Source: Diplonema papillatum (lineage: Eukaryota > Euglenozoa > Diplonemea > Diplonemida > Diplonemidae). From it: a DNA stretch of 64,000 nt. Below the pieces are notes generated by a model. It ran no database searches, was not told the DNA's origin, and saw only the letters and a program-made list of their open reading frames with translations. The stretch covers positions 1 to 64,000 of the forward strand of contig JAPJBO010000764.1 of NCBI GenBank assembly GCA_030068145.1. The letters are read 5' to 3'. The translations under genes were made by a program, and so were the position numbers. Below are positions 2,208 to 59,388 of the stretch, piece after piece; the stretch's first letter is position 1; each line of letters opens with the position of its first letter.

Positions 2208-3293
2208 TCATAGAAAACGACCTGCCCAGGCGCCACCAATACAGAGCCACGCCCCCGTCGGGTCTCCTGGTCCGAAGCCCGAAGAAAGCGCCGTCTTCCC
2301 GACCTTCGCTGCTGAAGTCGATGTCGATGTTGCGGGTCCTCGCTCGCCTTCCGCTGCTTCCGGCAGAACGAGCACCACGTTCTCACGCTTCGCCTGTCTC
2401 GGCGCTGACGCGGGGCCCTCCGGCTCCGCCTTCCTCTTCTTCGTCGTTGATTCTTCTCCTCTCGCCACGGCCGCCCGGTGGTGCCCTTCCCTGCAGCAGT
2501 GCCCGCGTCTCCTACTCCCCAGGTCGGCGTGTTTCTTGCAGCTGTCGCACGTCGGCATCTCATGGTCGAGACATCGGTGGTGATGGTTGCGACAGCATTC
2601 CGTTGTCGTCTTACATGTGGTGCACTGCGTCATCCGGTGCTCGGCACACATTTTCCGCTCACCCCACTTTTCGTGTCCGGGAATCCCTTCCGGTACGAGC
2701 CACGGGTCTCCTCCGACGACGGCCGACTTCTTGCCCTTCTTCTTCTCCGTGGTGTCGTCGAAGGCCGTCCATCTCGCTGCACGCTCCGCCCTCTCTCTTC
2801 CGTGCGTCGGGAAAAGGTCCATCCCCCACGCCTCACCGCTCGCCTTCAGCTGCGTCTCCAAGACTCCCATCGTCTCCTCGCCGCCGCGGAAAATTGGCCT
2901 CATCTCGTAGCCCGTTGGGCTCCCCGGCGTCGGCCGTCCTACTGGGAATTGGAAGAAATAGGACTTCAGGTCCCGAGCAGTTGTTGGTACTCGTGGCCCG
3001 GGAAAAGCAGGAAGTTCGGGCCCGAGATCCCATCGAGGTGCCGCAGCACGATGCGGATAGAGGAGCGGCAACGAGTCCGTACCGCCCCTTGCCCACATCA
3101 AAGCCTGGGCGGCGGCCGTCGGCCAAGCTCCCCAGGCAGTGATCTGGTCTGCCAGGTTCTTTGGCGGCGACGGCACCGAGTCCAGAAAAATCTGAAAACT
3201 CGCTAACACCGTCCGAGTGGCAGCTGAGTGATGGCCGCCGCACCCAAGCTGCGCCATGTACTGCGCCATCTGCAGGGGGTCGTCGGTGTTCAC
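2208..3293 (-). CDS. Cys/His-repeat protein, retroelement-like ORF (partial or decayed)
   Basis: A 361-codon ORF. Residues of roughly 215-275 hold two copies of a Cys/His module, C-x2-H-x4-C-x2-C-x(5-11)-C-C-x3-H-H (for example CAEHRMTQCTTCKTTTECC). The spacing suggests zinc binding and recalls B-box fingers without matching them exactly. A Lys/Arg-rich tail follows, resembling a nuclear-localisation stretch. The same architecture, with three modules, occurs in the ORFs at 18629-20040 and 20237-20994. Those look like 3' ends of a non-LTR retroelement, so this ORF probably belongs to a related element. The first codon of the open frame is GTG and a stop lies about 30 bases upstream, so the true start is unknown and the N-terminus is probably lost. 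A 432-codon plus-strand ORF overlaps it and is taken as its shadow. Function unknown. Confidence 0.5.
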   Translation of the reverse strand: MNTDDPLQMAQYMAQLGCGGHHSAATRTVLASFQIFLDSVPSPPKNLADQITAWGAWPTAAAQALMWARGGTDSLPLLYPHRAAAPRWDLGPELPAFPGPRVPTTARDLKSYFFQFPVGRPTPGSPTGYEMRPIFRGGEETMGVLETQLKASGEAWGMDLFPTHGRERAERAARWTAFDDTTEKKKGKKSAVVGGDPWLVPEGIPGHEKWGERKMCAEHRMTQCTTCKTTTECCRNHHHRCLDHEMPTCDSCKKHADLGSRRRGHCCREGHHRAAVARGEESTTKKRKAEPEGPASAPRQAKRENVVLVLPEAAEGERGPATSTSTSAAKVGKTALSSGFGPGDPTGAWLCIGGAWAGRFL

Positions 3294-22200: not shown

Positions 22201-22207
22201 ACAGTAA

Positions 22208-22470
22208 ACCCATACCAGCTGCACGCGGGCCGCAACGCCGTCGGCTTCGCCCCCGGCGGCCTGCATGACGTCCGCGGCGGGCTTCGCGTCGTCGGCGGCG
22301 GCGACCGCTGCCGGGGGCGCGTTCGTCGTTTCCTCGGGAAGTTCGGCGGTGGCGTCCGGAGCGGGCGCGAGGGGGGGCACCGGCGGAAGATCCTCCGGCT
22401 CGTTCGGCGGCCGGGGAATGTTCGCTGGCGCCTGCGGCACCGACATCTCCGCCTCCGTGGATCCGACAGT
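22208..22470 (-). CDS. Candidate GC-rich coding exon, Pro/Ala-rich
   Basis: A strongly GC-rich block in an AT-richer setting. It is open on the minus strand and encodes TVGSTEAEMSVPQAPANIPR, followed by a Pro-, Ala- and Glu-rich stretch ending VAARVQL. An acceptor-like CAG precedes ACTGTCGG at about 22470, and a donor-like CTG then GTATGG lies near 22212. The frame entering the acceptor is compatible with the phase-0 donor that ends the PUF exon at 24145. So it could be a downstream exon of that gene, though the expected terminal PUF helix is not in it. It could equally belong to another gene. Confidence 0.35.
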
Positions 22471-23590
22471 CTGCCACTTCAGTCGCCTGCGTGCGTGTGT
22501 GCGTGTCTAGGTTCAGGGCTTTGAGTGGGTAACGTCTGAATCGAAGTATAGCCCACTTGTCGGCTTTGAGTTTCCGACACGCTGCTTTTGGGTCCTGTGT
22601 CTCCTCCCCGAAGGGTGGGTGGGGCGGGATCCTTCGGGGGACGGATAGAGCGTGGGAGGCTGCAGCATCTCCATCCGGCACTCGGCTCAAGACTTCTGTT
22701 TTCATCTTGCGGTGTTAGCTGCACGGGGTTTTCGGCCTCGTGCAACAGCTGACCGTCTTCACACAGGCGGCACATCCCCCACCCGAGGATGTGGCAAGCT
22801 CTCTCTGTGCAATGAGCTTGGCCTGACTAGCTGTTCCAAACTCCTGGTGCTTGCAAGCACCCGTCATGGTCGGCAGTTGCCACCTGGGTCACAGTGTTGA
22901 GTCCTGTTAAGAGACTCGCTCGCACGGGGAAGATCGCTTGTCGCTAAGCAATCTGCAATGCTGACAACTGCTACCCCGTGCGTGTGTGCGTGTGAGCCAC
23001 AAGTGAAGCGTGTTGACGATGAGTATACAAGGTGTGAGAATAGTTGAGTCGCAGCTCCTGACAAGACAGATGGGGGAAAGAACGAGTTGGTTATGGAAAC
23101 AACCGCAGGTGTCATCATCAAAAAGTGACTGTTGGCAGCGTACTGTGGAAATTACCAACACAGGTGATAGCACATACGCACAAGTAAACCGGCTGTGCGT
23201 AAAGAAGAGCCACGTCACTTTTTACTTTATAAGCATGCTAGGACTGCAGGTAATAGTTGACTAGACCTGGCTCGGGCAGTACTCGTTGAACAGGGTGGAA
23301 GGTCGTCGACGTGATAAAGAGATATGCGACGTGTGGTGCGAAGTGCACGCTGTGTGATGCTTCATGTGAAATGTGCGATGCTATTGTTAGCTCCGAACTG
23401 GGCATACCTGTTGATTTTCTGCTCGATCTTGTGGCCGAACTGCGAATCTCCGACATACGGCGCGACAGCATTCTGCGGGGTTACGGTTGCTCTTGATATG
23501 AGTACAGTCTGCCCCCCCTCTCATCAACCGCGATAGCACGTGCGCCGAAGCTAGTCGTGGCCCAATACATCGGATGTGCCCTGAGTAACT
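22471..23590. other. Intronic or intergenic, no gene recognised
   Basis: If the candidate exon at 22208-22470 belongs to the PUF gene, this stretch is part of its last intron. Minus-strand frames around 22480-22770 are open but show no recognisable domain. No repeat family is evident. Confidence 0.45.
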
Positions 23591-23594
23591 CAAG

Positions 23595-23735
23595 CGTTCC
23601 CCTAGACTGGGTGCTGGCTTAGAGGCGTCCGGCCATGATCCATCCAGTGGTAGCGTCACGGCACGGTCCAATCGAACAACCGTAGCTACCAGGGACTAGA
23701 AACGGGAGTTCCTCTCGTACTACCCCGTATTCACA
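23595..23735 (-). rRNA. 28S rRNA fragment (sarcin-ricin loop region), pseudogene
   Basis: Read on the minus strand, the sequence contains AGTACGAGAGGAAC (the conserved sarcin-ricin loop segment), GGTAGCTAC, and GGCCGGACGCCTCTAAGCCAG, in the order found near the 3' end of eukaryotic large-subunit rRNA. Only about 140 bases are present and mutations are visible, so this is a relic rather than an rRNA gene. Its 5' side (minus strand) abuts a 40-bp tandem array. Confidence 0.7.
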
Positions 23736-23876
23736 CGCAGCAAGCACCCGCACACAGTAAGTCTTACACTTTACACGCAGCAAGCACCCGCACACAGTAA
23801 GTCTTACACTTTACACGCAGCAAGCACCCGCACACAGTAAGTCTTACACTTTACACGCAGCAAGCACCCGCACACA
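23733..23876 (+). repeat. 40-bp tandem repeat, about 3.6 copies
   Basis: The unit ACACGCAGCAAGCACCCGCA plus a further 20 bases ending TAAGTCTTACACTTT repeats head to tail without variation. It then runs into an R7 copy (about 23874-23925: TTGATCCTAGCATCAAG). Confidence 0.85.
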
Positions 23877-24144
23877 TGCATGGTTGATCCTAGCATCAAG
23901 TCTTCTTCGCGGAAGACGTCGTCTAGGAAAGGGATGCAAAATAGAAAATAGAAAGTTGTAAAGAGGGGAGTGTACGCTCCCAAAGTGGGGAATGAAACCT
24001 TGAGGGACTCGGCCCCTGTGTTTTTTTCACCGCGCGGTGTTGTGTGCACCTCGTTCTTCGTCTCGTGTTTCGCTCTTGAACGCAGACTAATCCAAAGTCA
24101 GAGCTCATCAGTGGGTCCTTTGGATGGAGGAGGGACTGGGATAC

Positions 24145-25055
24145 CTTGATGGCGATCACTAGGTTGGCCGGAGCCTTCTCGATGGCGTCCTGCACGATGT
24201 AGTTGCCGTACTGGTCCTTGATGATGCGCGGGAGGCAGTCCGGGTCGAGGATGCGGCCCACGAGGAGCGCAAGCGTCTTCGCCGTCCCCATCTGCGTGCA
24301 GCGCTCGATGACGTGGCTCGCCATCTTGTTCGTCGCGTTGGCGACCATGTTCTCCGCGATTTTTTCCGCCACCACGTGCGCGGTCTCCGGGCTGTCGATG
24401 ACGTGCTGGATGAGGTAGTTTCCGTACTGGTCGGGAATCAACAGCTCGGAGCATTCGAGGATGCGGTTGTACAGGCAGATTTTGTACTCCGGCGTCGAGA
24501 GGTCAACGAGCCTCTTCATGGTAACGCAACCTTTGCTTTCTCTGGCGATGACGAGCAGGTTGTGCAAAACCGCGTCGTAGAGGGGCTGCATGGTTTCTTG
24601 GGCGTACCGGCGCATGAGAACTTTGACGAACAGCTTGCGCGCTGTGTGGGACGTCATGATCGTCACGACGTCTTCGCCCATCTTGTTGATGAGCATCACC
24701 GCCGCCGGGCCGTCGGCCAGGCGTCCCACGAGCTGCAGGAGCACCTCGCAGCCGTAGTTGCTGTCGCAGATTTCGATCAAGTCGGGCAGGGCGGCTTCAA
24801 GCAGCTTCTCCCGCTGGGCGGGCGTCGAGACTTCGACCAGCTCCCGGACCGCGTCGGTCGCGTGCTTGTGCGTGACCAGGCCCACGAAGTCGTCGAGGTT
24901 CTGCAGGATCGTGTCGACCACGGTCTCCAGCCACGCCGGCGAGCTCACAGCCGCCTTCAGCGCGTCCACAAGCGCCTGGGACCCGCTCGGTGACAGGGCG
25001 AAGGTGCTGAACTTCCCGGCGACGGCAGACAGGTTGATGCACCCGCCCGCAGGAG
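24145..25055 (-). CDS. PUF gene exon 3 (PUF repeats)
   Basis: 911 bases. It starts after the acceptor CCGCAG (CT completes the split codon) and ends ATCAAG before the donor GTATCC. It carries about eight PUF repeats, from LSPSGSQALVDAL to IIKDQYGNYIVQDAIEK. The unspliced frame continues to 23923 through intron sequence (VSQSLLHPKDPLM), which should not be counted as protein. Confidence 0.85.
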
Positions 25056-28000
25056 CTGCGGGGTTTTGGAGGAAAGTCTTGGTTTGATGTTTAGCGAGGG
25101 ATTTTGCCTCTCGTGCAGGTTTGATGCTAGATTCGAAAAACGAAAAACACAGGTGGGAAAAAGGAAGCGGGGAGTGTAGGACTCGCGGTGTGAACCCTTG
25201 GGAGACTTGTCCTCGTTTCTTATTTTTCACCGCGGTGTTGTGGGCGTCGAGACTTCGACCAGCTCCAGGACGGCGTCGTGCGTGACCAGGCCCGAAGTCG
25301 TCGAGGTTCTGCAGGATCGTGTCGACCACGGTCTCCAGCCACTCACAGCCGCCTTCAGCGCGTCCACAAGCGCCTGGGACCCGCTCGGTGACAGGGCGAA
25401 GGTGCTGAACTTCCCGGCGACGGCAGACAGGTTGATGCAGGAGCTGCGTTTCGGTTTCGGAGGAAAGTTTTGGTTTAATGTTTAGGCTGGGCGACTGCCT
25501 CTCATGCATGTTCGATGCTAGCATCAAGTCTTCTTCGAAGAAAACAATGTAAAACAGAAAAAAACACAGGTGGGAAAAGGGAAGCAGGGAGTGTGAGACG
25601 CAGGTGAGGTGGGAATGTCAACCCTTTTGAGGGACTAGTCCTCATTTACTATTTTTTTCACCGCGGTGTTGTGTGCGTCGAGACTTCGACCAGCCCCCGG
25701 ACGGTGTCGGTCGCGTCCACAAGCGCCTGTTCTACACGTTTCGATCAACCACCAAAACACGCTGCCTACGTCTTTTTAGCCTGCACAATACATTGAAGGG
25801 CAACCCACGGTGGTGTAAGCGAAGAACAAGTACGTGCGCTCGGCTAAAGGCCGGCGCGGGGCGAGACTGGAGGCAGCTGTTATAGTTCGGGAAACAGTAA
25901 ACTTCGGGCGCAGCTAAGTTCGGGCGATGCTAAGTTGGGTGATGCAAATTTCTGGTGAACCAAAGTTCGGGCGAAGCTAAGTTCTGTGAAGCAAAGTTCG
26001 GGCGCAGCTGAGTTCGGGCGAAGCAAAGTTCGGGCGAAGCTAAGTTCCAGTGAATCAAAGTTCGGGCGCAGCTGAGTTCGGGCGAAGCAAAGTTCGGGCG
26101 AAGCTAAGTTCCAGTGAATCAAAGTTCGGGCGCAGCTGAGTTCGGGCGAAGCAAAGTTCGGGCGAAGCTAAGTTCCAGTGAATCAAAGTTCGGGCGCAGC
26201 TGAGTTCGGGCGAAGCTGAGTTCTGGTGAAGCAAAGCAAAGTGCGGGCGAAGCAAAATTCGGGTTCTGGTGCGCCAGTACCCGGGGGGGAGGCCCCCCGA
26301 CTCCATTTCGCGTGGTGCCCAAATACCGCGAGATACTGAGAAACTCCGCGAAAAACGCAAATTTCGGGCCCATTAGACCCCGAAACGCAACAAACCTCGA
26401 ACAATCTTCGACCGAAAAAGTGTGATGGGCGGGGGCCTACCGGCCTGAAGGCCGACGCCCGCTCACTCTGCCACCCCCTTGCATTTTGGCAGGAAAGGAA
26501 AAAGCTACGCACCAGTATCTAGTCCAAAAACAATACACTTTTCGCAACTTAGAAAAGCCGGGTTGGCTCGAATAGAGGTTATTCACATTGCATGTTCATA
26601 GGACCTCCAGTCTCGAAAAAAGGGGATGAAGTGGAGCAAAGAGGCCGCGGTGGAGTGGGTGAAGCAGACGACGGGCGACACGTCCCTACCCGTCCGCTTT
26701 GCAGTGATAACAATCTTGTGTTGTTTTCTCACTCAGGACTTTGACTTGGTGCGTCATGTCATGTAGGGGTAGGCCCGCATGACCTCACGTCCGTTCAACA
26801 CGTGGGACGGTAGTTTACAGCACTTTAGATCCCTTCGGTTCTTTGTCTGGCAGCTTTTGTCGAGCACTTCCTTCAAAGCTGAAGCTTGTGTAAAAATACT
26901 CGACGTAGCTGCTTTGACTCCGAGTGGAAGGGAGGAGATGTAGAGTAGCAGAGGGGCAAATACAATACAAACACAATGTGATTTGTTCTTCGCTTACACC
27001 AATCGCTGGCGCTTATGTGTAAAAAAATTGAGGCGGACCTGGACTCGAGGGTGCCGGCAAGTTGACGTGCATGTTCGTGTGCATCGCGAGCGACGGGCTG
27101 AGGGAGGCTGACTGGCGGTGGGAGGGCGGGGTTCTGCTGGTGACGATGTTCGGGTACGCGGTGGGGCTTTGCGGCTGGGGAAGGTGGTGGCGGCTGTGGT
27201 GGTGCGCGTGCACGTGGTGGGAGAGCTGCTGGTGGTGGTGGTGGTGGTGGTGCGCCTGCTGCATGTGCGGCATGTGGTGGTGCTGCTGCTGGCTGTGGTG
27301 CGGGCTTCTGTGCACCTGCGGCCCCCCGAACAGCGCGACACGGGGATCCTGAACAAGCTGTCCATGGAACGCCTGGTGCGCTTGGTGCTGGTGGTGCTGG
27401 TGGATTGACTGCGGCGGCGTGCCCACCATAGACGGGCTCATGCCACTAGGGCCGTTCCTAGCAAGCTGCATGTGAGGGGGCAGACCGACGTGGGCCTTCA
27501 TCCCCGGCGGAGTGGAAGCGGAAGTGTTGCGGTTGGGCGTCACGGGGAGCGCGGAGCCCATGGTTTCGAGCTGCCGAGTCGCCGACAGCAGCTGCTGGTG
27601 GGACAGCATGTTCTGCAGCGGCGGCGCCGGCGCCGGGAGGCCGAGCTGCATCGCGGCCTGCACCTGCTGCTGGTGGTTCAGCTGCAGCGCCAGCGTGTAC
27701 TGCAGCTGCGCGAGCTGCCCCTGCTGGAACTGCTGGGCGCGCGACTGGTGCTCGTACGGGTCGGGCATCTGGTACGCTTGCACCTGCGCGGTGGTGTGTG
27801 TGTGTTAAAGGAGACGTCCTAGGTGGAACACTCCGGCAGTACTTTCAAAGCCGAAAGCCCAATTCTGGCACGGTTTCAGCCGAAAGGCCAATTCTACCAC
27901 TTTCAAAGCCGAAAGTCCAATTCTACCACTCAAAGCCGAAGTCCAATTCTACCACTTTCAAAGCCGAAAGTCCTATTCTACCACTTTCAAAGCCGAAAGT

Positions 28001-30153
28001 CCAATTCTACCATTTTCAAAGCCGAAAAGTCCAATGCTACCACTTTCAAAGCCGAAAGTCCAATTCTACCACTTTCAAAGCCGAAAGTCCAATGCTACCA
28101 CTTTCAAAGCCGAAAGTCCAATTCTACCACTTTCAAAGCCGAAAAGTCCAATGCTACCACTTTCAAAGCCGAAAGTCCAATTCTACCACTTTCAAAGCCG
28201 AAAGTCCAATGCTACCACTTTCAAAGCCGAAAGTCCAATTCTACCACTTTCAAAGCCGAAAGTCCAATTCTACCACTTTCAAAGCCGAAAGTCCAATGCT
28301 ACCACTTTCAAAGCCGAAAGTCCAATTCTACCACTTTCAAAGCCGAAGTCCAATTCTACCACTTCTAAAGCCGAAAGCCCAATTCTGGCACGGTTTCAGC
28401 CGCAAGTCCAATTCTACCACTTTCAAAGCCGAAGTCCAATTCTACCACTTCTAAAGCCGAATGTTCCAATTCTAACAGTTCTGAAGCCGAAAGTCCCATT
28501 CTCACACTTTTAGTAGCACGGGTTAGCCAAAACTGGCTAGAGCGAATTTTCGGGGGGCATATGTTCTTTGTGCTACCGTCGATCCCGCACAGTTTGGCGT
28601 CCTTTGCGACCTTTGTTCGGTAAGAATTTGGGATGGCGCGATTTCGCTGGTCCTAGTAGCTCTTTGACTGACCGAGCAAAAAAGCCGGTTTCAGCCAAAA
28701 CCCCGGTTTTGGAGCTCTGCGGTGCCTGTCGGGGTCTGAGTGCCTGGAACCGTCGCCCCGCGCACGCAAACAAGGGGACGGAGGGGTGGTGAGATATAAG
28801 CTTGCGGTGGTGGTGTGCACGTCTATCAAACTACGGAGATGGTAAGTGAAAAGAATCGAATTGCAGTGACACACCGTGACACACCGTGACACACCGTGAC
28901 ACACCGTGACACGCGTTTTGGTTGTAGCACACCCGCTTTTCGGGTGTGGATTCCCACGCGTTTTGGTTGTAGCACACATCGTGACACACCGTGACGCGCC
29001 ATGTAACTGCAGTACTGTACAGTACATACAGGGCCACTGGAAATTATAATTTACAAAATATTTTTAATTTTATGAAACCCCGAAACCGGAAAATCCCGGT
29101 TTCTGAAACCGGGAAACCGGGTTGCTAAAGTCCCCTGTCGTATAGCCCTGTTGCGACGCCAACATTTTAGCTCGCTCTCTTGCCTAGACTGTTGCTTGTA
29201 TTACGCGGTCGGTATCTTCCGGAAGGTAAATCACAAACACGGGAGACGAGCAAGATAAGCTTAGTCCACCGACGGTGTAAAACTTGCGTTTTTTTTTGTG
29301 ATTGGCTTTTATTTCCCTCCTCTGGGCCCGCTAGCAGCGACGGACCTCGCGAAGCGATTCGCGCCAGCACGAGGGGAGAACTTGTCAGCCGTGACTGCTG
29401 CATTCTGCTTCGGCGGCATCAGGTCGGTTCCTTATTTTCCTTTTAAGAAGGCCGCGAGAGTCGGCTGAGCCGGGAAGGTGTGTATGTACTTAGGTATTAC
29501 AACCTGGTTCGATTGCGGGATAATAAAACCTCGGGGATAAAAGACTGCGTGTTTTTCCCGTTCAAAGCAAAAAGAAGAAGAAAAAAGTAAACCTCTGCAC
29601 CACCCCACACCTGCGCCTTCTGCTGCTGGAGGTGCTGCTGCTGCTGCTGGAGCTGGGTGAGCAAGCTTTTCATTTGGCCCGTCGACAGGTTGGAGCCTGT
29701 CGGCACCGGCACGTTGATGGGGCTCATCACTTGGGGCGCAGATGCCGGGGAGCTGGCTTGCGGCGCGGGCACGTTGGCGGGTTTGAAGGTGATGGTTGAC
29801 ATGGTCGCGATGCCGACGTCGAGTGCCTTGGTGTCGTGGGTGCACGGCATCAGCTCGCTGTTGAAGTGCAGGGAGAAGTTGCTGGCGGGCACCCCGATTT
29901 GCTCCGAGACCTGCTCGTACAGCTCTTGGAGCGTCAGCGTGGCCAGGTTGCACTCGACCGCAATGTACATCGGCGCCACGAACACCTTGTGCGGGGTCAC
30001 ACCGACAGTCGCCGGCGGCGGCACCGGCGCCACATCCCGCTGCCGCTGCGGCGTGAACTCCGCAGCGCTTGGGCTCAGCCCCTGCCTGGACGCCGTAACA
30101 GACGCCGCCGTGTCCTCGATGTCCTGCGCGAGCGTCGGACTAGTGACCGCCAT
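24145..30153 (-). CDS. PUF (Pumilio-family) RNA-binding protein with N-terminal ubiquitin-like segment
   Basis: Three exons join in frame: 30153-29611 (phase 0), 27783-27039 (phase 1) and 25055-24145. All have GT-AG borders. Encoded order: residues about 57-125 look like a ubiquitin-type beta-grasp (VECNLATLTLQELYEQVSEQ, then LMPCTHDTKALDVGI); 165-430 are Gln-, His- and Pro-rich; about 430-733 are PUF repeats. The last three repeats carry DQYGNYLIQ, NKMASHVIE and DQYGNYIVQ. Their recognition positions (N-Y-Q, S-H-E, N-Y-Q) match those that read U, G, U in Pumilio proteins, so binding of a UGU-containing mRNA element and post-transcriptional repression are likely. The central repeats (SKGCVTMKR, SNYGCEVLL) have atypical recognition residues. 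The usual C-terminal helix (TYGKHI-like) is missing from exon 3, so at least one more exon lies below 24145. Upstream of the ATG there are poly-T tracts and an R7 copy. Confidence 0.85.
25085..25672. repeat. Tandem R7-bearing intron units in the PUF gene
   Basis: Units at about 25070-25240 and 25462-25672 each contain R7 (GGTTTAATGTTTAGG, TGCCTCTCATGCATG, CGATGCTAGCATCAAG in the better copy). Each continues into a GTGGGAAAAGGGAAGC block, an AACCCTT-GAGGGACT block and TTTTTTCACCGCGGTG. A related unit follows exon 3 at 23874-24042. In minus-strand sense R7 supplies the 3' intron end, right next to the splice acceptor. Confidence 0.65.
25240..25440 (-). pseudogene. Decayed duplicate of the 5' part of PUF exon 3
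   Basis: Matches the start of exon 3 (METVVDTILQNLDDF region, CTCCTGC after an acceptor-like CGCAG) but has several small deletions. These include the GGGCGGGT octamer after the acceptor, about ten bases near CCACGCCGGCGAG, and bases in GTCGGTCGCGTGCTTG. The frame is broken, so use as an alternative exon would not give PUF protein. It lies in intron 2, and the same intron flank (R7 plus TTTTTTCACCGCGGTGTTGTG) is repeated with it. Confidence 0.75.
25672..25730 (-). pseudogene. Third, shorter relic of PUF exon 3
   Basis: GTCGAGACTTCGACCAGC, a shortened CCGGACGGTGTCGG and CCACAAGCGCCTG are preceded by the CACCGCGGTGTTGTGTGCG flank also found before the 25240 copy. It shows that the duplication occurred at least twice. 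Confidence 0.65.
25891..26275 (+). repeat. Minisatellite, about 59-bp unit
   Basis: Built from CAAAGTTCGGGCG, CAGCTGAGTTCGGGCG and AAGCTAAGTTCCAGTG blocks. Three nearly identical 59-bp units at about 26000-26200 are flanked by degenerate ones. It is open in all minus-strand frames (LRPNFDSLELSFARTL) only because the unit lacks stops. It lies in PUF intron 2. Confidence 0.85.
26276..26699. other. PUF intron 2, unique sequence
   Basis: A short intronic stretch between the minisatellite and the SINE-like pair. I see no coding signal, repeat family or inverted repeat in it. Confidence 0.45.
26700..27027 (+). mobile_element. Two SINE-like family A copies head to tail in PUF intron 2
   Basis: The first copy (about 26700-26885) ends TGAAGCTTGTGTAAAAATACT. 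The next starts at once with CGACGTAGCTGCTTTGACTC and is internally deleted, jumping from CTTCGCTTACACCA to CGCTGGCGCTTATGTGTAAA. The tail ends about ten bases from the exon 2 splice donor (27037-27038), in antisense orientation to the gene. Confidence 0.65.
27039..27783 (-). CDS. PUF gene exon 2 (Gln/His/Pro-rich)
   Basis: 745 bases. The acceptor CCGCGCAG precedes GTGCAAGCG, and the exon ends CCAG before GTCCGC. It encodes a low-complexity region with poly-Gln, poly-His (about nine His) and a PSSPGPPQ end. It is probably disordered, as is common N-terminal to PUF domains. The frame entering from exon 1 (KAQ) continues without a shift. Confidence 0.8.
27840..28505 (+). repeat. 29-bp satellite array, about 22 copies
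   Basis: The unit CTTTCAAAGCCGAAAGTCCA plus ATTCTACCA repeats head to tail, with ATTC/ATGC alternation and one-base changes (GAAAAGTCC, GAAGTCC). The edges are more diverged (TTCTGGCACGG, TTCTAACAG). It lies in PUF intron 1, starting about 57 bases from exon 2, so it could affect splicing. Not a CRISPR array: there are no spacers. Confidence 0.9.
28640..29128. mobile_element. hAT-like MITE, copy 2 (diverged)
   Basis: Collinear with the MITE at 14112-14499: GACCGAGCAAAAAAGCCGG, GAACCGTCGCCCCGCGCACG, GAGATATAAGCTTG, and the right terminus CTAAAGTCCCCTG. The left terminus is eroded. It gained a GTGACACACC tandem run (about 28866-28912) and a duplicated ACGCGTTTTGGTTGTAGCAC. It lies in PUF intron 1. 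Confidence 0.7.
29129..29610. other. PUF intron 1, part next to the exon 1 donor
   Basis: The intron begins at the GT at 29609-29610. No repeat family or coding region was recognised between the MITE copy and exon 1, apart from a short T run at about 29291. Confidence 0.45.
29611..30153 (-). CDS. PUF gene exon 1 (start and ubiquitin-like segment)
   Basis: The chosen ATG (30151-30153, context AAGAGATGGCGG) gives MAVTSPTLAQDIED. The frame is open further upstream, but that part is translated poly-A/poly-T sequence (KKKKK), typical of non-coding leader. The exon ends QQQKAQ before GTGTGG. It encodes the ubiquitin-like region at about residues 57-125. Confidence 0.75.
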
Positions 30154-37977: not shown

Positions 37978-38163
37978 ACGTAACAACCTTGTTTCGACTT
38001 TTGCTTCCTCTGGCTGAGAAACATTACTTGGAGTCGGGCGCTGAACTTGTTGCCAAGAACGAGCTTCCCTCTCCCAAGCTCTATCCCACAGCCAATCGGT
38101 AGCAACGACGGGCGGTGTGCACAAATGGCAGGGACGTATTCAGTGCAAGCTGATGACTTGCGC
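37978..38163 (-). rRNA. 18S rRNA 3'-end fragment, pseudogene
   Basis: Minus-strand reading gives GCGCAAGTCATCAGCTTGCA, CACACCGCCCGTCG, CTACCGATTGG, GAGGAAGCAAAAGTCG and ACAAGG. This is the conserved decoding-site end of eukaryotic 18S rRNA (helix 44 and flanks). Substitutions in invariant positions (GTGCACACC for GTACACACC, GTCGAAACAAGG for GTCGTAACAAGG) mark it as a relic. Confidence 0.85.
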
Positions 38164-38640: not shown

Positions 38641-40146
38641 TTACAGCAGGTCGACGTCGATGATCTCCGCCTTCTGCTCGGCGGGTGCTTCTTTTTTCGC
38701 TTTTTTCCGCGAAGGGTCTTTGCCCACGTCGGCAGGGGCGAATCTGCCCTGGCGGTCCACTTCGACGGCTGTCACACTCGTGTCGAGCGTCTGTAACATT
38801 TTTTGCGTTCAACGCGGTTTCAAGGTTCGGTGTTTTAGGGGTGTCCGGTTGACCACTGAGGTTGGGAGTCGGGTAGTGAAAGGGATGTAGCCATATTTGC
38901 AATATGGCCAGCAAGTTTTGTGAACAATGAGACTTGTTTGTTTTTTTCACACACAAAGACTAATAATAGTCCGAAAGGCAGGTTTGCCGCTCCAACCGTC
39001 CAGAGAAACAAAAGGTAGCTTGCTTCCCCTCCCTCCCTTCCCCCTTGCCTCATGTTCAGAGTCCAGAGTTTTGAATTCAAGTTTCTCAAACTTAGCGTTA
39101 GCTTTCTGTAGCGAGCCATCCCTATTCAGGACATTTCTAGCGTTTATTGTGGTTTAGAGGTTCAATTTTTTTTAGGGTCTCCGGTTGACCATTGAGGCTG
39201 GAAGGCGGGTAGTATGAGGGATGTAGGTATGATTACACACTTCCGGCTAGCCAAGTTTGTAAGTGTTGCGACCGGCACCAATTTCTCTACCGGTTTGCTT
39301 GGGGGTTTCTTTCGCGTTTTCAAGCAAGGAGTGAAGAATCGGGCGGCATACCTCGAGGATGTGAAGTATGAACGGGCTGATGTAAACGGAGCCGAGATAA
39401 AGGGTTTGGCTGCAGATTGGGCATTTCCAGTACGTGGCTGGGCAACTGGGCTTCATGACTTGATACGCCCACGAATGCAGGTCGAAGGTGGCGAGGTGTT
39501 TGCACGACGCGCCACGGGCGGGTATTTTGAGGCGGAGGGACGAGTACGGGCAGATGAGAGGCACCCGCTCGATGGAGCCCATCATGATGTCGCCCCCGAC
39601 GAAGAACGCCTCCTCGATGAACGAAAGCTCGCGGCCGACGGTGCACGGCCGCACCACGATTTCGACCAGCTGGTCGTTGGTGTAGTTGCGCGCCCGGTAC
39701 TCGCGGATTCGGGCCATTTCTTCGTTGTGCTTGGCGATCTTCTTGTTCTTGCTCGGCTTCACTTGGTCGGACAGCAGGTACGGAATCTGGCTGCTCGGGG
39801 CGGGATACTTCGTGAGCAAGTCCGGTGGGGATGAAGGCGGCGGCAGCATCGCTTTGGACCCCCAGTTGACCCTCGGGTAGTCGTCTGAAATGAGCAGGTC
39901 TTCGAACGATTCGGTCTTGCAGTGCCGCACGCAGAACAGGTTGTCCAGCATCGTGCTGCGCGTGTTCGCCTGGTCCATGCACACCGCCGCGTACAGCACC
40001 CGCACCCGGTCCATCTTCGAGCAGAGGCCGGCGTGCCACGAGTACTCTGCGTTCACGCAGTACAACCACTCCCACAGCTCCTCGTCGGCGAAGCCTCCAT
40101 TCTCCGCCGTCGGTGCTCGGTCCGAGCCGTCTTCGAACGCCACCAT
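38641..40146 (-). CDS. SP-RING (PIAS/Siz-type) SUMO E3 ligase
   Basis: Two exons: 40146-39352 (265 codons) and 38790-38641 (49 codons plus TAA). Both are in phase 0, with the donor GAG before GTATGC and the acceptor TTACAG. Residues about 194-255 form an SP-RING: ICPYSS, then C215-x-H217 (RGASCKH), HLATFDL, and C242-x2-C245 in WKCPICS. These match the Zn-binding Cys-His-Cys-Cys set of Siz/PIAS proteins. Upstream residues 100-190 align loosely with the PINIT region. The spliced end (ILETLDTSVTAVEVDRQGRF) matches the VEV-x-x-DG-x-W-like segment that follows SP-RINGs. The protein ends in a Lys-rich stretch and EIIDVDLL, a SUMO-interacting-motif-like hydrophobic/acidic end. No SAP domain is seen, so an upstream exon is possible. 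The role is transfer of SUMO to nuclear substrates. The intron (38791-39351) carries two R4 copies. Confidence 0.85.
38800..39290 (+). mobile_element. Two R4 copies inside the SP-RING intron
   Basis: Copy at about 38800-38930 (TTGCGTTCAACGCGGTTTC, GTCCGGTTGACCACTGAGG) and copy at about 39130-39290 (TCTAGCGTTTATTGTGG, CTCCGGTTGACCATTGAGG, GCGACCGGCACC). The outer copy reaches exon-proximal intron sequence on both sides, so much of this 561-bp intron is repeat-derived. Confidence 0.7.
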
Positions 40147-40249
40147 CCGTGGCTCCTCCGCCCTCTGCCCCCTTCTCCCCCGACCCCTGGCCGATCAGAT
40201 ATTAAGAGTTTGACTCCAGTTGAATTAATGATGTTTTCTCGCATGTCCT

Positions 40250-43805: not shown

Positions 43806-43998
43806 TAGCCACAAGCCAGTTATCCCTGTGGTTAGTTTTCTGTCACCTCCGGCTTCATCCCTTGAACATGAAGCGAGACCAAAGGATTGTTAGGCCATGC
43901 CTTCACACCGAGGATCGGTACTGAAGATCGCGTATCGAGCAAGCTTTAACCCTTATGCTCTACGCGAGATTTCTGTTCCCGCTGAGCTACCTGCGTTG
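43806..43998 (-). rRNA. 28S rRNA fragment (peptidyl-transferase region), pseudogene
   Basis: Minus-strand reading gives AACGCAGGT, GCGGGAACAGAAATCTCGCG, AAGCTTGCTCGAT, TGAAGGCATGGCC and CCACAGGGATAACTGGCTTG. The last segment is the near-universal helix 89-90 region. The order agrees with eukaryotic 28S. Both edges end abruptly and substitutions are common, so it is a relic. Confidence 0.85.
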
Positions 43999-44902
43999 AT
44001 GTGTAACAGATGTGCCCTGCTGATAGACTGCGACAGACTATGATCACCTGTAATAAGCCTGTGCTAGCCTGTGCTAGCCTGTGCTAGACTGCGGATAGAC
44101 TGTGAAAGGCAGCAGGCAGTTCGATGCAGGAAATAGGGGTGGACTGGCTCGCTCAGTAACGGGCCGAGAGCCTTTTTGTTTCTTGCTTTTTTGTGCGGTC
44201 GACGATATACGTCGTTCTGATGCCTGACGACTTTGGCTCTTTGCTTTTTTTTTTTTTTTTTTTTAACTCTCCGGTCGGCCGTAGAGGTTTGGAGGTGGGG
44301 TTGAGAGAGAGGGGGGAGAGAAGTGGAGGAAGAGTGTCGCTCGCGTCGGGTGATTTCTCACTCCGCCGCGGGGTCCTTACGCGTTTGGGGGAAGGGGGAG
44401 GGGAAAATCTTAGTTTCGTGTTCAGGCGCTACTTGCCTCTAAGTGTTTGATGCTAGCATCAAGTCTTCTTCGCGGAATGCAGAGGGAGGGGAAGGGTGAT
44501 AGTGTAGCAAAGCATGGCCACGCGGAATGGCTGCGCGCAGACGCACGCAGCCCGGCCACACCCTTTGCTGCGAACAGATTCTAAAGAAAGGGAGCTTCGA
44601 AGGGCAGCAGCAAGTCATGTCACCTGCAGCGCCGTCGGAAAACTAGCGGTGGAAGGGGAGAGAGGGGAAGCATGCCAGCTGCGGTGCAAACCCACGTGCC
44701 GGCACGCAGCAAACTTCCTGGTTTTTCGGAGCCGACTAGAAATCAGCACGGTGTGGTGAAGAAAGAAGCCGGGTGGGGAAAGAGAGAGAGAAGAGGGGGG
44801 AGGCGAGGGAAGAGGGATCGATGGTTGCCTGCCGGGGCATCGAAGACGGGACAAGTGGAATCGTTTGGCATAAAAGACTGGAAAGGTGGTTTCGTTGAAA
44901 AA
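43999..44902. other. Intergenic with an R7 copy
   Basis: CCTGTGCTAG is repeated three times at about 44060-44088. A T run lies at 44247-44264. An R7 copy with the full palindrome TTTGATGCTAGCATCAAG lies at about 44402-44478. No gene recognised. Confidence 0.55.
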
Positions 44903-55888: not shown

Positions 55889-56689
55889 TTTTCCCTAAAA
55901 CCATTTTTTGGTGGAAAAAAGTGTGTTCGTGGGGTGCAAAAGTTTTTGGGGGTTTCGGCTGGGGCTCCGGTTACGAAGCACATTTTTCCGGGGGCCAGTC
56001 GGCAAACCTGCCGCGGGGCAGAAGGTGAGGTAAAAAAAGAGAGAGAGAGAGACGAGTTAGAGAGAAAAAGACACAAACTTTTGACCCTGCATGGTATTTA
56101 GAGTTAAAGTTCGCTTGAAATTCCGGGGGTTTAGGGTCTCCGTGTGACCGTTCATGAATGGGTTCTTTTAGAGCAAGAAAGGGCTATATGGTTACGGGTT
56201 GTATATTTGGTGCACGCTTTCGTTATGGGTTATGGCTAACTATTTGTTAGAGTGTTTACTACTGAGCTTGTGTTCTAGGACAGCCAGCGAGCAGCGAGAG
56301 ACGGCAACGCGGCTGAACTTGACTCCAAGCGACAAAATATCCCACGTTTACCCCCAAAGTGGGGACATGCACGTCGACGGCGTCGGGAGACACTATGGGT
56401 AGATCGCTTGAGCATCATCCATTTTCAGGACCGGTGCATTCGGCAGGTGAGTTGCTTCCTCGGGTGCCGACTTCCCTGGCCGCTGTAAAGAACCGACCCC
56501 TGTTTGGTGGGATCTGATGAGCGACCACTCGGACAACTTAAGTCAGCTCTCGGTGCATCCCGCGTCGCCTGTCCTGCTGTCAAGATGAACCGACACCCTC
56601 TATGGGATCCGATGAGCAAGTACTCGGACACCTTAAGTCAGCTCTCGGTTCGTCCCGCGTCGCCAGCCCTGCTTGCCAAAAGTGGGCCA
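55889..56689. other. Intergenic with a long R4 copy
   Basis: R4 at about 56090-56235, collinear with 16573 and 53630 (TTAGAGTTAAAGTTCGCTTG through GGGTTATGGCTA). A short GA run with GACGAGTTAGAGAG lies at about 56038-56060. No gene recognised. Confidence 0.55.
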
Positions 56690-58045
56690 GGGTTCAACGT
56701 CAAGCAACGCAGCGAAAGAAGAAAAGGGGTGTCCGCCTGTGCGTTTCGGCAGCAAGCGTTTGTTTCGATGAAGAAACAAGTGCAGCAGAGTGCCCGGCGA
56801 GCCTGCGGTGCAACACGCTGGCATTTGCGAGGCAGCGAAGACGGGGTGTCCCCCCCCTGTTCTTTTCGGCAGCAAGCACCAGCACACTTTGTATCGATGA
56901 AGAAACAAGTGCAGCAGAGTGCCCGGCGAACCTGCGTTTTGCAATTGCCGAGGCAGCTGACGTGTCAAACAAGCTGTGCGTTTCCGCAGAGCATCAGCAC
57001 ACGTTTTGTCGATGAAGAAACAAAACGCGACAGACAGAGGGCGACGTAGGCACTGCCGAGACGGATGCGCAGGCGTCAATCGAAACAGCGAGAGACGGAG
57101 TGTACACCTGTGCGTCGGCAGCGAGACCACGCTTCGGTGAAGAAGTGTGAAAACGGGGTTTTGCCCGGAGGCTTCTCGTGATATTCTGCAGATGCTTTGA
57201 GCTATATTTGTGTCTATATTTTCATTCGTCTTCTTAACCATGGTTAAGTGCGCAAATGGTGGCAGCCGAAGCTGGTGAAGAAAGCGCGGCAGAGTGCGTT
57301 GCGAAGCAGGTGGATGTATATAGACACAAATACCGAGCGAGAAAAAGCGAGACAGCGAAATACGGAGTGTCTCCGCTGTGCGTGCCGACAAGCGAGCACC
57401 AGCACCCTTTGGCTGGACATTGTAGCGAAAATTGTTTGTGCGCGCGTGCGTAGTCCCTAGTTGATAGGAAATACGCAGTCGTCAACCGATGATGACGAAC
57501 GCGTTTGTTACCGTAAAAGAAGCGCGGCTGTGTACGCTGCGAGCGTTCGGACATCACAAGGATTTGCCGAGACGGATTCCCCCACGCACGGGCCAAGCGC
57601 AACAGCGAAAAACGTCTCCGCTGTCGGCAGCAAGCGGCGGCACGCTTTGTGTCGATGAAGAAAAAAGCACGGCGGGGGTGGGGGCACTGTGGGGGCTCGT
57701 TCACGGGGGACAATTTGCCCGAGGCGGAGCAATGCCCAGCTCCCCCCAGCGGACAGTGTGGCGATCAACAACTTCGGCGAGTTTGTTTGTGCGCGTGCCA
57801 AGTCCCTAGTTGACGATAGGTCTAACACGATACGCTGCCAACCGACTCTTCTTAATAATGACAGACGCGTTTGCTACCGTAAGAAAAGCGCGACAGAGTA
57901 GTACGCTGCGAACGTTCGGTCATCACGGACGTTTTGCCGAGGCGAATGCTCAGACACAGATGTCAAGCGAAACAGCGAAGAACGGAGCCGGCAGTGAACC
58001 AGCACGCTTTGCGTCGATGAAGAAAAAAAAGCGCGGACAGGAGGG
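56690..58045. repeat. Diverged tandem repeat region downstream of the ankyrin gene
   Basis: Recurring blocks include GTCGATGAAGAAA, CGGCAGCAAGC, AAACAGCGAA, TTGCCGAGRC and, in larger units, TTTGTTACCGTAAAAGAAGC and GTGCGTAGTCCCTAGTTGA. At least two large units of about 330 bp (57420-57660 and 57780-58020) plus shorter ones with GTGCAGCAGAGTGCCCGGCG are visible. Open frames are numerous but change between units, so I do not call genes. Confidence 0.6.
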
Positions 58046-58048
58046 GCG

Positions 58049-59164
58049 CTAGGCGCGAGGGACAATCTCACGGGACATTTTGCCGAGGAGGATGCTCTTC
58101 ACCTCCGGCGCCTCGGCCACGTCGACCGCGCGCTGCCCGCCCTGGTCGGCGTGGTGTGGGTTCGCGCCGCGGTCGACCAGATACTGCACGACGTCCGGCT
58201 TCCCGCCGAGGGCTGCCGCGTAGAGGGGGGTCTCCCCGTACTTGTCGACGGTGTCCAGGCACGCTCCGCGCGCGTGCAAGAACGACACAATACCCAGCTC
58301 CCCCAGCGCCGCCGCCCGCGACAGAGGTGTCCGACCGTCCGTATCAGCCACATCCACCGCCGCCCCCTCTTCGCACAGTAGCCTCACCGCCGGGAGTCTC
58401 CCGTGCAGGGACGCGACGTATAGAGGGGTCCTCCCGTTTTCAGCCGGCTGGTTCACAGCGGCGCCGTTTTGCACGAGGTACCGGAGCATCTGCAAATCGC
58501 CCGTCCACGCGGCTCTGTACAACGCCGTGCGCCCCGACTTGTCGGCTGCGTTGACGTTCGCCCCGTGCTCCCGCAGGCGACGGACGACCTCCCAGCGCTT
58601 GCTGCGGGCCGCGATGAAAAACGGCGACCAGCCCCCCTTCTCCGCCAGCTCTGCGTCGGCGCCGCTGCAGAGCAGCAGCGCAACGACGTCGACCTGCCCG
58701 GCCCATGCAGCTCGGTACAGCGCGGTTCTCCCGTTGGAGTCCTGCTTGTTGATGCTTGCCCCCGACAGCAGCAGCAGCGTGACTGTATCACAGTCCCCGC
58801 GGTGGGCCGCGATGCTCAGCGCCGTGCACCCATCATCATCGTCCCTGTCGATGTCCGCCCCCCGCGAAACGAGGTATGCCACGACGCCCCGCCACCCGCC
58901 GGCTGCGGCCAGGTGCAGCGGGCTCTCGCCGCCGCCGCCGCGCCGGTGCAGCTGCCACGGCACCGTCTCCTGTCCCACCCGAAACGCGGAGACTCGCTCG
59001 TCGTCCGCCGCCAGCCGGTTCCCGCAGTACAGCCGCTGGTCCCGATCCGGGATCCCCGTCCTCCCCATCACCGCGAGCTTCAAGCACGCGACCGTCGCCG
59101 ACCACGGCACCGTGACAGCCGCCGTCGTGCCGACGGGGAGCGCAACGTGGCACTGCAGCATCAT
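58049..59164 (-). CDS. Ubiquitin-like plus ankyrin-repeat protein
   Basis: An intact 371-codon single-exon gene with an ATG pair at 59164. Residues 5-77 are ubiquitin-like: GIPDRDQRLYCGNRLAADDE matches the IPPDQQRLIFAGKQLED segment, and the fold ends HRRGG at residues 73-77, where ubiquitin has its LRLRGG end. Residues 81 to about 345 hold eight 33-residue ankyrin repeats (G-x-TALYRAAWxGxxxVVxLLLxxGAxxN) plus a partial ninth ending VKSILLGKM. The likely role is a cytosolic adaptor that links a bound partner (ankyrin face) to the ubiquitin-proteasome machinery, or a precursor cleaved after the Gly-Gly. Both are inferences. It is the most GC-rich stretch in the area and lacks repeats. CT-rich leader sequence lies just upstream. 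Confidence 0.9.
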   Translation of the reverse strand: MMLQCHVALPVGTTAAVTVPWSATVACLKLAVMGRTGIPDRDQRLYCGNRLAADDERVSAFRVGQETVPWQLHRRGGGGESPLHLAAAGGWRGVVAYLVSRGADIDRDDDDGCTALSIAAHRGDCDTVTLLLLSGASINKQDSNGRTALYRAAWAGQVDVVALLLCSGADAELAEKGGWSPFFIAARSKRWEVVRRLREHGANVNAADKSGRTALYRAAWTGDLQMLRYLVQNGAAVNQPAENGRTPLYVASLHGRLPAVRLLCEEGAAVDVADTDGRTPLSRAAALGELGIVSFLHARGACLDTVDKYGETPLYAAALGGKPDVVQYLVDRGANPHHADQGGQRAVDVAEAPEVKSILLGKMSREIVPRA

Positions 59165-59388
59165 ATTCCCTCTCTCTCTCTCTCTGAACTTCTTACCTCG
59201 GACTTATTTCGGACCAGCCGCGTTGCTGCCCTTTCGGGAGGGGAGTTGCTGTGTGCTCCTGCAGTCTTCGTGTTTTTTTTTTCTCTTCTTTCGTACTTGA
59301 CCAACAGGTTCACCCCCCCGCACGCCAAGTCCGCCCTTCGGTATAAGTTCGTTCAGAACTTCACTCACTTCGTTGACGAAGTTCTTGA

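Follow-up and report, generated by a model that had tools for sequence, protein, structure and literature searches.

The window analysed here comprises the first 64,000 nt of contig JAPJBO010000764.1 (C764) of Diplonema papillatum, and a gene on its minus strand is predicted to encode a PUF protein with an N-terminal ubiquitin-like (Ubl) segment. Exon 1 (30153-29611; 543 nt, 181 aa) begins with ATG, ends at the 5' splice site CAG/GTGTGG and encodes a Pro-rich leader, followed by the Ubl-like segment (residues ~54-125) and a Q-rich tail. Exon 2 (27783-27039; 745 nt, 248 aa) encodes a low-complexity linker rich in Gln, His, Pro and Met, for which a Pfam scan returned no matches, and exon 3 (25055-24145; 911 nt, 303 full codons) encodes the PUF repeats. 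Fused in frame, these three exons gave 2199 nt or 733 codons with no stops and showed GC3 values of 0.88, 0.88 and 0.89, with a total GC of 0.485-0.533 in the introns. Of the introns (intron 1, 27784-29610, 1827 nt; intron 2, 25056-27038, 1983 nt; intron 3, 23473-24144, 672 nt; all on the minus strand), the two separating these exons are bounded by GT...CGCAG. A previous sequence-only reading of this DNA had placed the three exons at the correct positions, with joins in phase. Intron 2 also holds a degraded duplicate of part of exon 3 (25236-25445, minus strand, outside the coding sequence), which covers exon 3 residues 1-80 with 71% identity and was rejected as an alternative exon because its gaps break the frame. 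Short tandem repeats arrayed near 27840-28500 were seen by eye in intron 1, and intron 3 contains a fragment of 28S rRNA (23607-23731).

The same reading had ended the gene at 24145, which proved to be wrong, as exon 3 has no stop there and a fourth exon was found. When the C-terminal ends of six further PUF proteins encoded in the genome were built into a profile and used in an hmmsearch of all six frames of the window, two matches with E <0.1 were obtained, namely exon 3 and an open stretch at 23365-23520 (minus strand), the latter representing exon 4 with an E of 2.8e-5. Exon 4 (23472-23362, minus strand) encodes 36 aa plus stop and forms the PUF C-terminal cap NAVAPYVGDSQFGHKIEQKI; it is preceded by CCCCGCAG just upstream at 23473, continues exon 3 in phase 0 and reaches its stop at 23362, leading to a predicted full protein of 769 residues. 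The 3' end of exon 4 is unsure because of its GC3 of 0.62 and a candidate 5' splice site (AACAG/GTATGC) after base 23408 within the exon. A stretch at about 22201-22470 was considered as a continuation of the gene and rejected, having no Pfam matches and a frame that, by our own reading, misfits the alternative splice site at 23408; it is possibly the start of another gene.

Exon 3 scored 48.3 bits against the Pfam PUF model (cut-off 26.3; E 7.9e-13), and in the PDB it matched human PUM1 and PUM2 chains with a best E of 1.4e-33. A single-sequence structure model of the PUF part was all helical (pLDDT 54.2), and the best 50 of 1010 Foldseek matches obtained with it were PUF structures. In the alignment to PUM2, repeats R5-R8 were clear, with the cap located in exon 4, and R1-R4 appeared degenerate by eye. 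The final three repeats (GNYLIQ, ASHVIE and GNYIVQ), which align with PUM2 R6-R8, retain the residue sets N-Y-Q, S-H-E and N-Y-Q at positions 1, 2 and 5 of helix 2, read as U-G-U in the PUF code; the U-G-U residues claimed before are indeed present. R5 carries the non-standard set C-V-K, while its three paralogues described below show C-V/I-Q, which would read A and extend the motif to UGUA. From these data we infer that exons 3 and 4 encode a PUF domain with predicted sequence-specific RNA binding.

The Ubl-like segment is far more divergent. Exon 1 matched Pfam ubiquitin (PF00240) weakly with an E of 0.073 and 13.3 bits (cut-off 25.4), and a second scan of the segment led to 15.3 bits, still below the cut-off. 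At E<=10 only one of the four family members matched PF00240, ubiquitin was not matched at E<=1 in Pfam scans of the full N-terminal ORFs of the three paralogues, and among the PF00240 matches listed for the genome (at least 72) none was located on the four contigs concerned. Because of the score below the curated cut-off and this lack of listed matches, we refer to the segment as ubiquitin-like and not as a PF00240 member. A second weak Pfam match of exon 1 was the NPL4 N-terminal domain, with E values of 0.19 and 0.049 in two scans. When the family profile of the segment was searched against the PDB, all matches (29/29) were ubiquitin-like, with chains of parkin, ubiquilin, RAD23 and UHRF2 (as 'Np95-like') among them, and two control profile searches gave no ubiquitin-like match there; the profile without the C764 row found one PDB chain only, a redesigned ubiquitin, with an E of 1.2. 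A single-sequence model of residues 50-130 (29764-30006, minus strand) showed the order E-H-E-E-E at a pLDDT of only 53.7, and its best Foldseek matches, among the matches listed, were ubiquitin-like. A structure prediction lacking a beta-grasp, named beforehand as the outcome that would speak against this segment, was not obtained; the predicted strand-helix-strands order and the Foldseek matches agree with this fold, and by profile search and low-confidence model the segment is a predicted divergent ubiquitin-like beta-grasp.

Several residues set it apart from ubiquitin itself. A Gly-Gly end is absent, the last strand of the segment being followed by KPANVPAPQ. In the multiple alignment, the column of ubiquitin Ile44 shows His in the C764 protein and Leu, Leu and His in the paralogues, and that of Lys48 shows Glu in the C764 protein; the C764 protein therefore does not keep a hydrophobic residue at the Ile44 position, with the other patch positions aligning ambiguously. 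Throughout the family the segment opens with PH, has C-[ND]-[LV] ahead of the helix and contains an F-x-L strand, and A-[IL]-D-[IV]-G is kept in three of the four members.

The Ubl-PUF order recurs in three paralogues of the same genome (assembly of 271 Mb, 2910 contigs, in which a RuBisCO large subunit was looked for and not found and an 18S rRNA was read), on C1258, C78 and C83. Across the three paralogues, identity with the C764 Ubl segment amounts to 27, 19 or 24%. With exon 1 as query, a whole-genome search at E<=1 detected beyond itself C1258 (8e-4), C14 (0.57) and C83 (0.67), of which C14 is not a PUF match and is the one weak exception among the genome searches with Ubl segments. The C1258 segment led to Ubl-PUF genes in four of four matches and the C78 segment in three of three, the C764 gene being missed by the latter, and the C83 segment at E<=10 found four places including itself, all of them Ubl-PUF genes. 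In C1258, a single intron-free ORF of 433 residues contains the Ubl segment as well as PUF repeats and by itself exceeds the Pfam PUF cut-off (47.4 bits, E 1.5e-12). A 394-residue ORF of C78 matches the C1258 ORF at 2e-4 over its Ubl part and at 1e-14 over its initial PUF repeats; these repeats alone stay below the Pfam cut-off, and the next ORF is PUF at 2.3e-21. On C83, the ORF with the Ubl part and the ORF with the PUF part follow each other along the same strand. Together with the in-phase exons of C764, the single ORF of C1258 and, by homology, C78 bear out that N-terminal Ubl-like segment and C-terminal PUF domain belong to one protein, as had been proposed. A four-row profile of the Ubl segments, which necessarily recovers the members it was built from, detected no additional one in 17 stretches from around PUF loci and the C764 contig (next best E 1.7), the PUF loci on C1166, C1661, C1299 and C428 lying outside the sequences examined.

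A tree was calculated from PUF R5-R8 and the cap, leaving out the Ubl segment, with ten rows picked from among the PUF loci for readable R5-R8 (the eight rows of an earlier tree plus C24 and C174; for C1258 and C83 the pieces of the row were put together by eye). A branch with a support of 98/99 (98/97 under a simpler model) separated all four Ubl-PUFs from the other rows, and the eight-row tree had shown the same grouping with 100/99. The C764 row formed the longest branch of the main tree (2.85) but received no long-branch flag with the simpler model. Judged from these sequences, the four members most likely form a subfamily sharing its architecture by descent, and the simplest reading of the tree would be one fusion before the copies diverged.

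Our preferred explanation, to which we assign a probability of roughly 0.6, is a protein composed of a divergent beta-grasp Ubl, a Gln/His/Pro-rich linker and a PUF domain with cap, in which the Ubl acts as a non-conjugated docking surface. The reading frame, splice-site pattern, architecture, its recurrence and the U-G-U residues are observed; that the exons are spliced in living cells, that the protein binds RNA and that a partner is recruited with an effect on the mRNA is inferred. The PUF domain would pick mRNAs with UGU (UGUA for the paralogues), and the Ubl-like domain would bring a partner protein to the bound mRNAs, which may then be repressed, stored or decayed by it, a role of the kind proposed for the N-terminal parts of other PUFs. 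The sequence KPANVPAPQ after the last strand argues against a function as a modifier, and a private docking surface is favoured because Ile44 and Lys48 are not kept and the family conserves a residue set of its own.

The sequence-only reading had suggested a tie between mRNA choice and protein degradation. Coupling of the mRNP to the ubiquitin system via the proteasome or a Cdc48/NPL4-type receptor would agree with the predicted fold and the weak NPL4 match, but it is opposed by the missing Gly-Gly end, by His and Glu in the Ile44 and Lys48 columns and by Leu or His in the Ile44 column of the paralogues, and we regard it as improbable. The same low probability applies to its extensions, namely that the coupling would lead to degradation of nascent proteins, of bound ones or of the PUF itself, and that an anciently fused PUF subfamily would use the Ubl as an effector arm towards proteasome, Cdc48 or E3 to couple mRNA control with protein turnover. 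Since the Pfam score lies below the cut-off, Gly-Gly is absent and other residues occupy the Ile44 and Lys48 positions, the degradation link is unsupported, and docking of a partner on UGU(A) mRNAs is likelier. A beta-grasp could also serve PB1- or DIX-style self-association, clustering PUFs on one mRNA or in granules with help of the Gln/His-rich linker. The low-complexity exon 2 and four divergent paralogues, which could form mixed oligomers, would suit such a function, which nevertheless seems unlikely to us with PB1 and DIX absent from the Pfam results and fold matches that are of the ubiquitin type among those listed.

Two further alternatives concern the gene itself. The long branch, the altered R5 and short C-terminus, the broken exon 3 duplicate in intron 2 and the lower GC3 of exon 4 might indicate that the C764 copy is decaying; with 733 open codons at a GC3 of 0.88-0.89 across three exons and reading residues retained in the last three repeats, we consider this a distinctly poor explanation. 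A wrong join of two neighbours, with exon 1 belonging to a Ubl protein gene and exons 2-4 to a PUF gene, could be suspected from the introns of 1.8 and 2.0 kb separating the parts, but it was rejected as highly implausible because both parts occur in the one ORF of C1258 and, by homology, in C78; moreover, the Ubl-segment matches across the genome are PUF genes, C14 excepted.

Compared with known systems, the C764 protein shares with classical PUFs (human PUM1/PUM2, oomycete M90) the C-terminal PUF repeats, the U-G-U residues, the cap and a long low-complexity N-terminal part, but differs in its N-terminal Ubl-like segment and, by our own reading, in the degenerate R1-R4. With parkin, ubiquilin, RAD23 and UHRF2 it has in common an N-terminal Ubl-like domain without Gly-Gly in a larger protein, whereas the Ile44 residue is not kept in it; the C-terminal parts of those proteins are E3, UBA or chromatin domains and not PUF. 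The polyubiquitin of the same genome (C173) shares the fold, by prediction, but is only 8% identical in the multiple alignment, and the C764 Ubl does not look like a modifier. No description of a Ubl-PUF architecture was found among the literature matches listed, and a word search of a study tracing how Puf proteins evolved in eukaryotes (PMC7325665) gave no occurrence of ubiquitin or UBL; the literature covered also included PMC12324679, PMC8547697, PMC12787238 and PMC5862402. The architecture may already be present, without remark, in protein databases.

PUFs are among the best-understood mRNA regulators, while the roles of their N-terminal parts are mostly unknown, and a folded, inherited Ubl-like domain would offer a defined surface to test. 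If the Ubl binds proteins of the ubiquitin system, mRNA choice would be directly coupled to protein turnover. The Ubl-PUF subfamily suggests that a familiar mRNA regulator acquired a novel type of partner-docking module in this lineage, and it would show that the effector arms of PUFs can be changed by domain fusion.

Introns 1 and 2 of the Ubl-PUF gene, which fuses a ubiquitin-like (Ubl) segment to Pumilio-family repeats on the minus strand, carry repeated sequence. In intron 2, window positions 25210-25800 (minus strand) hold decayed partial tandem copies derived from the 5' part of exon 3 together with the intron sequence upstream of it, and alignment to this source led to 262 identical positions in 313 aligned columns. 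Inspection of intron 1 by eye revealed a tandem array of units of about 30 bp resembling AAAGCCGAAAGTCCAATTCTACCACTTTC (27840-28500).

Elsewhere on the minus strand, an ankyrin-repeat ORF of 384 aa (58052-59203; Pfam Ank_2, E 1.3e-77) showed, when read by eye, a segment of ubiquitin-like appearance upstream of the repeats, ending in RRGGGG. A Pfam search of this ORF gave no ubiquitin match at E ≤ 0.01; the ORF is a possible candidate for a second Ubl fusion inside the window. A further minus-strand ORF (39250-40194) encodes a MIZ/SP-RING zinc finger (E 1.7e-11), a domain of SUMO E3 ligases. Outside the window, contigs C1060 and C1564 contain PUF loci with identical scores and ORF lengths, perhaps reflecting two haplotypes or a recent duplication.

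Four separate rRNA fragments were detected in the window, all on the minus strand: LSU 3021-3145 at 23607-23731, inside intron 3 of the Ubl-PUF gene, SSU 1669-1798 at 37988-38115, LSU 2423-2812 at 43837-44046 and LSU 961-1385 at 56366-56749. For the 28S fragment of intron 3, at least 40 additional matches were found in the genome, a lower bound as 40 of 816 candidates were scored, and at least 39 of them are almost full length with 93-95% identity. Among the matches listed are pairs spaced 7.6 kb apart on contigs C15, C196 and C217, the pair on C15 enclosing a complete rDNA unit, and numerous long contigs are represented (C3, C15, C31, C33, C43, C65, C94, C98 and others). Therefore, from this distribution, rDNA units, whole or partial, seem to be dispersed through the D. 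papillatum genome rather than held at a single locus.
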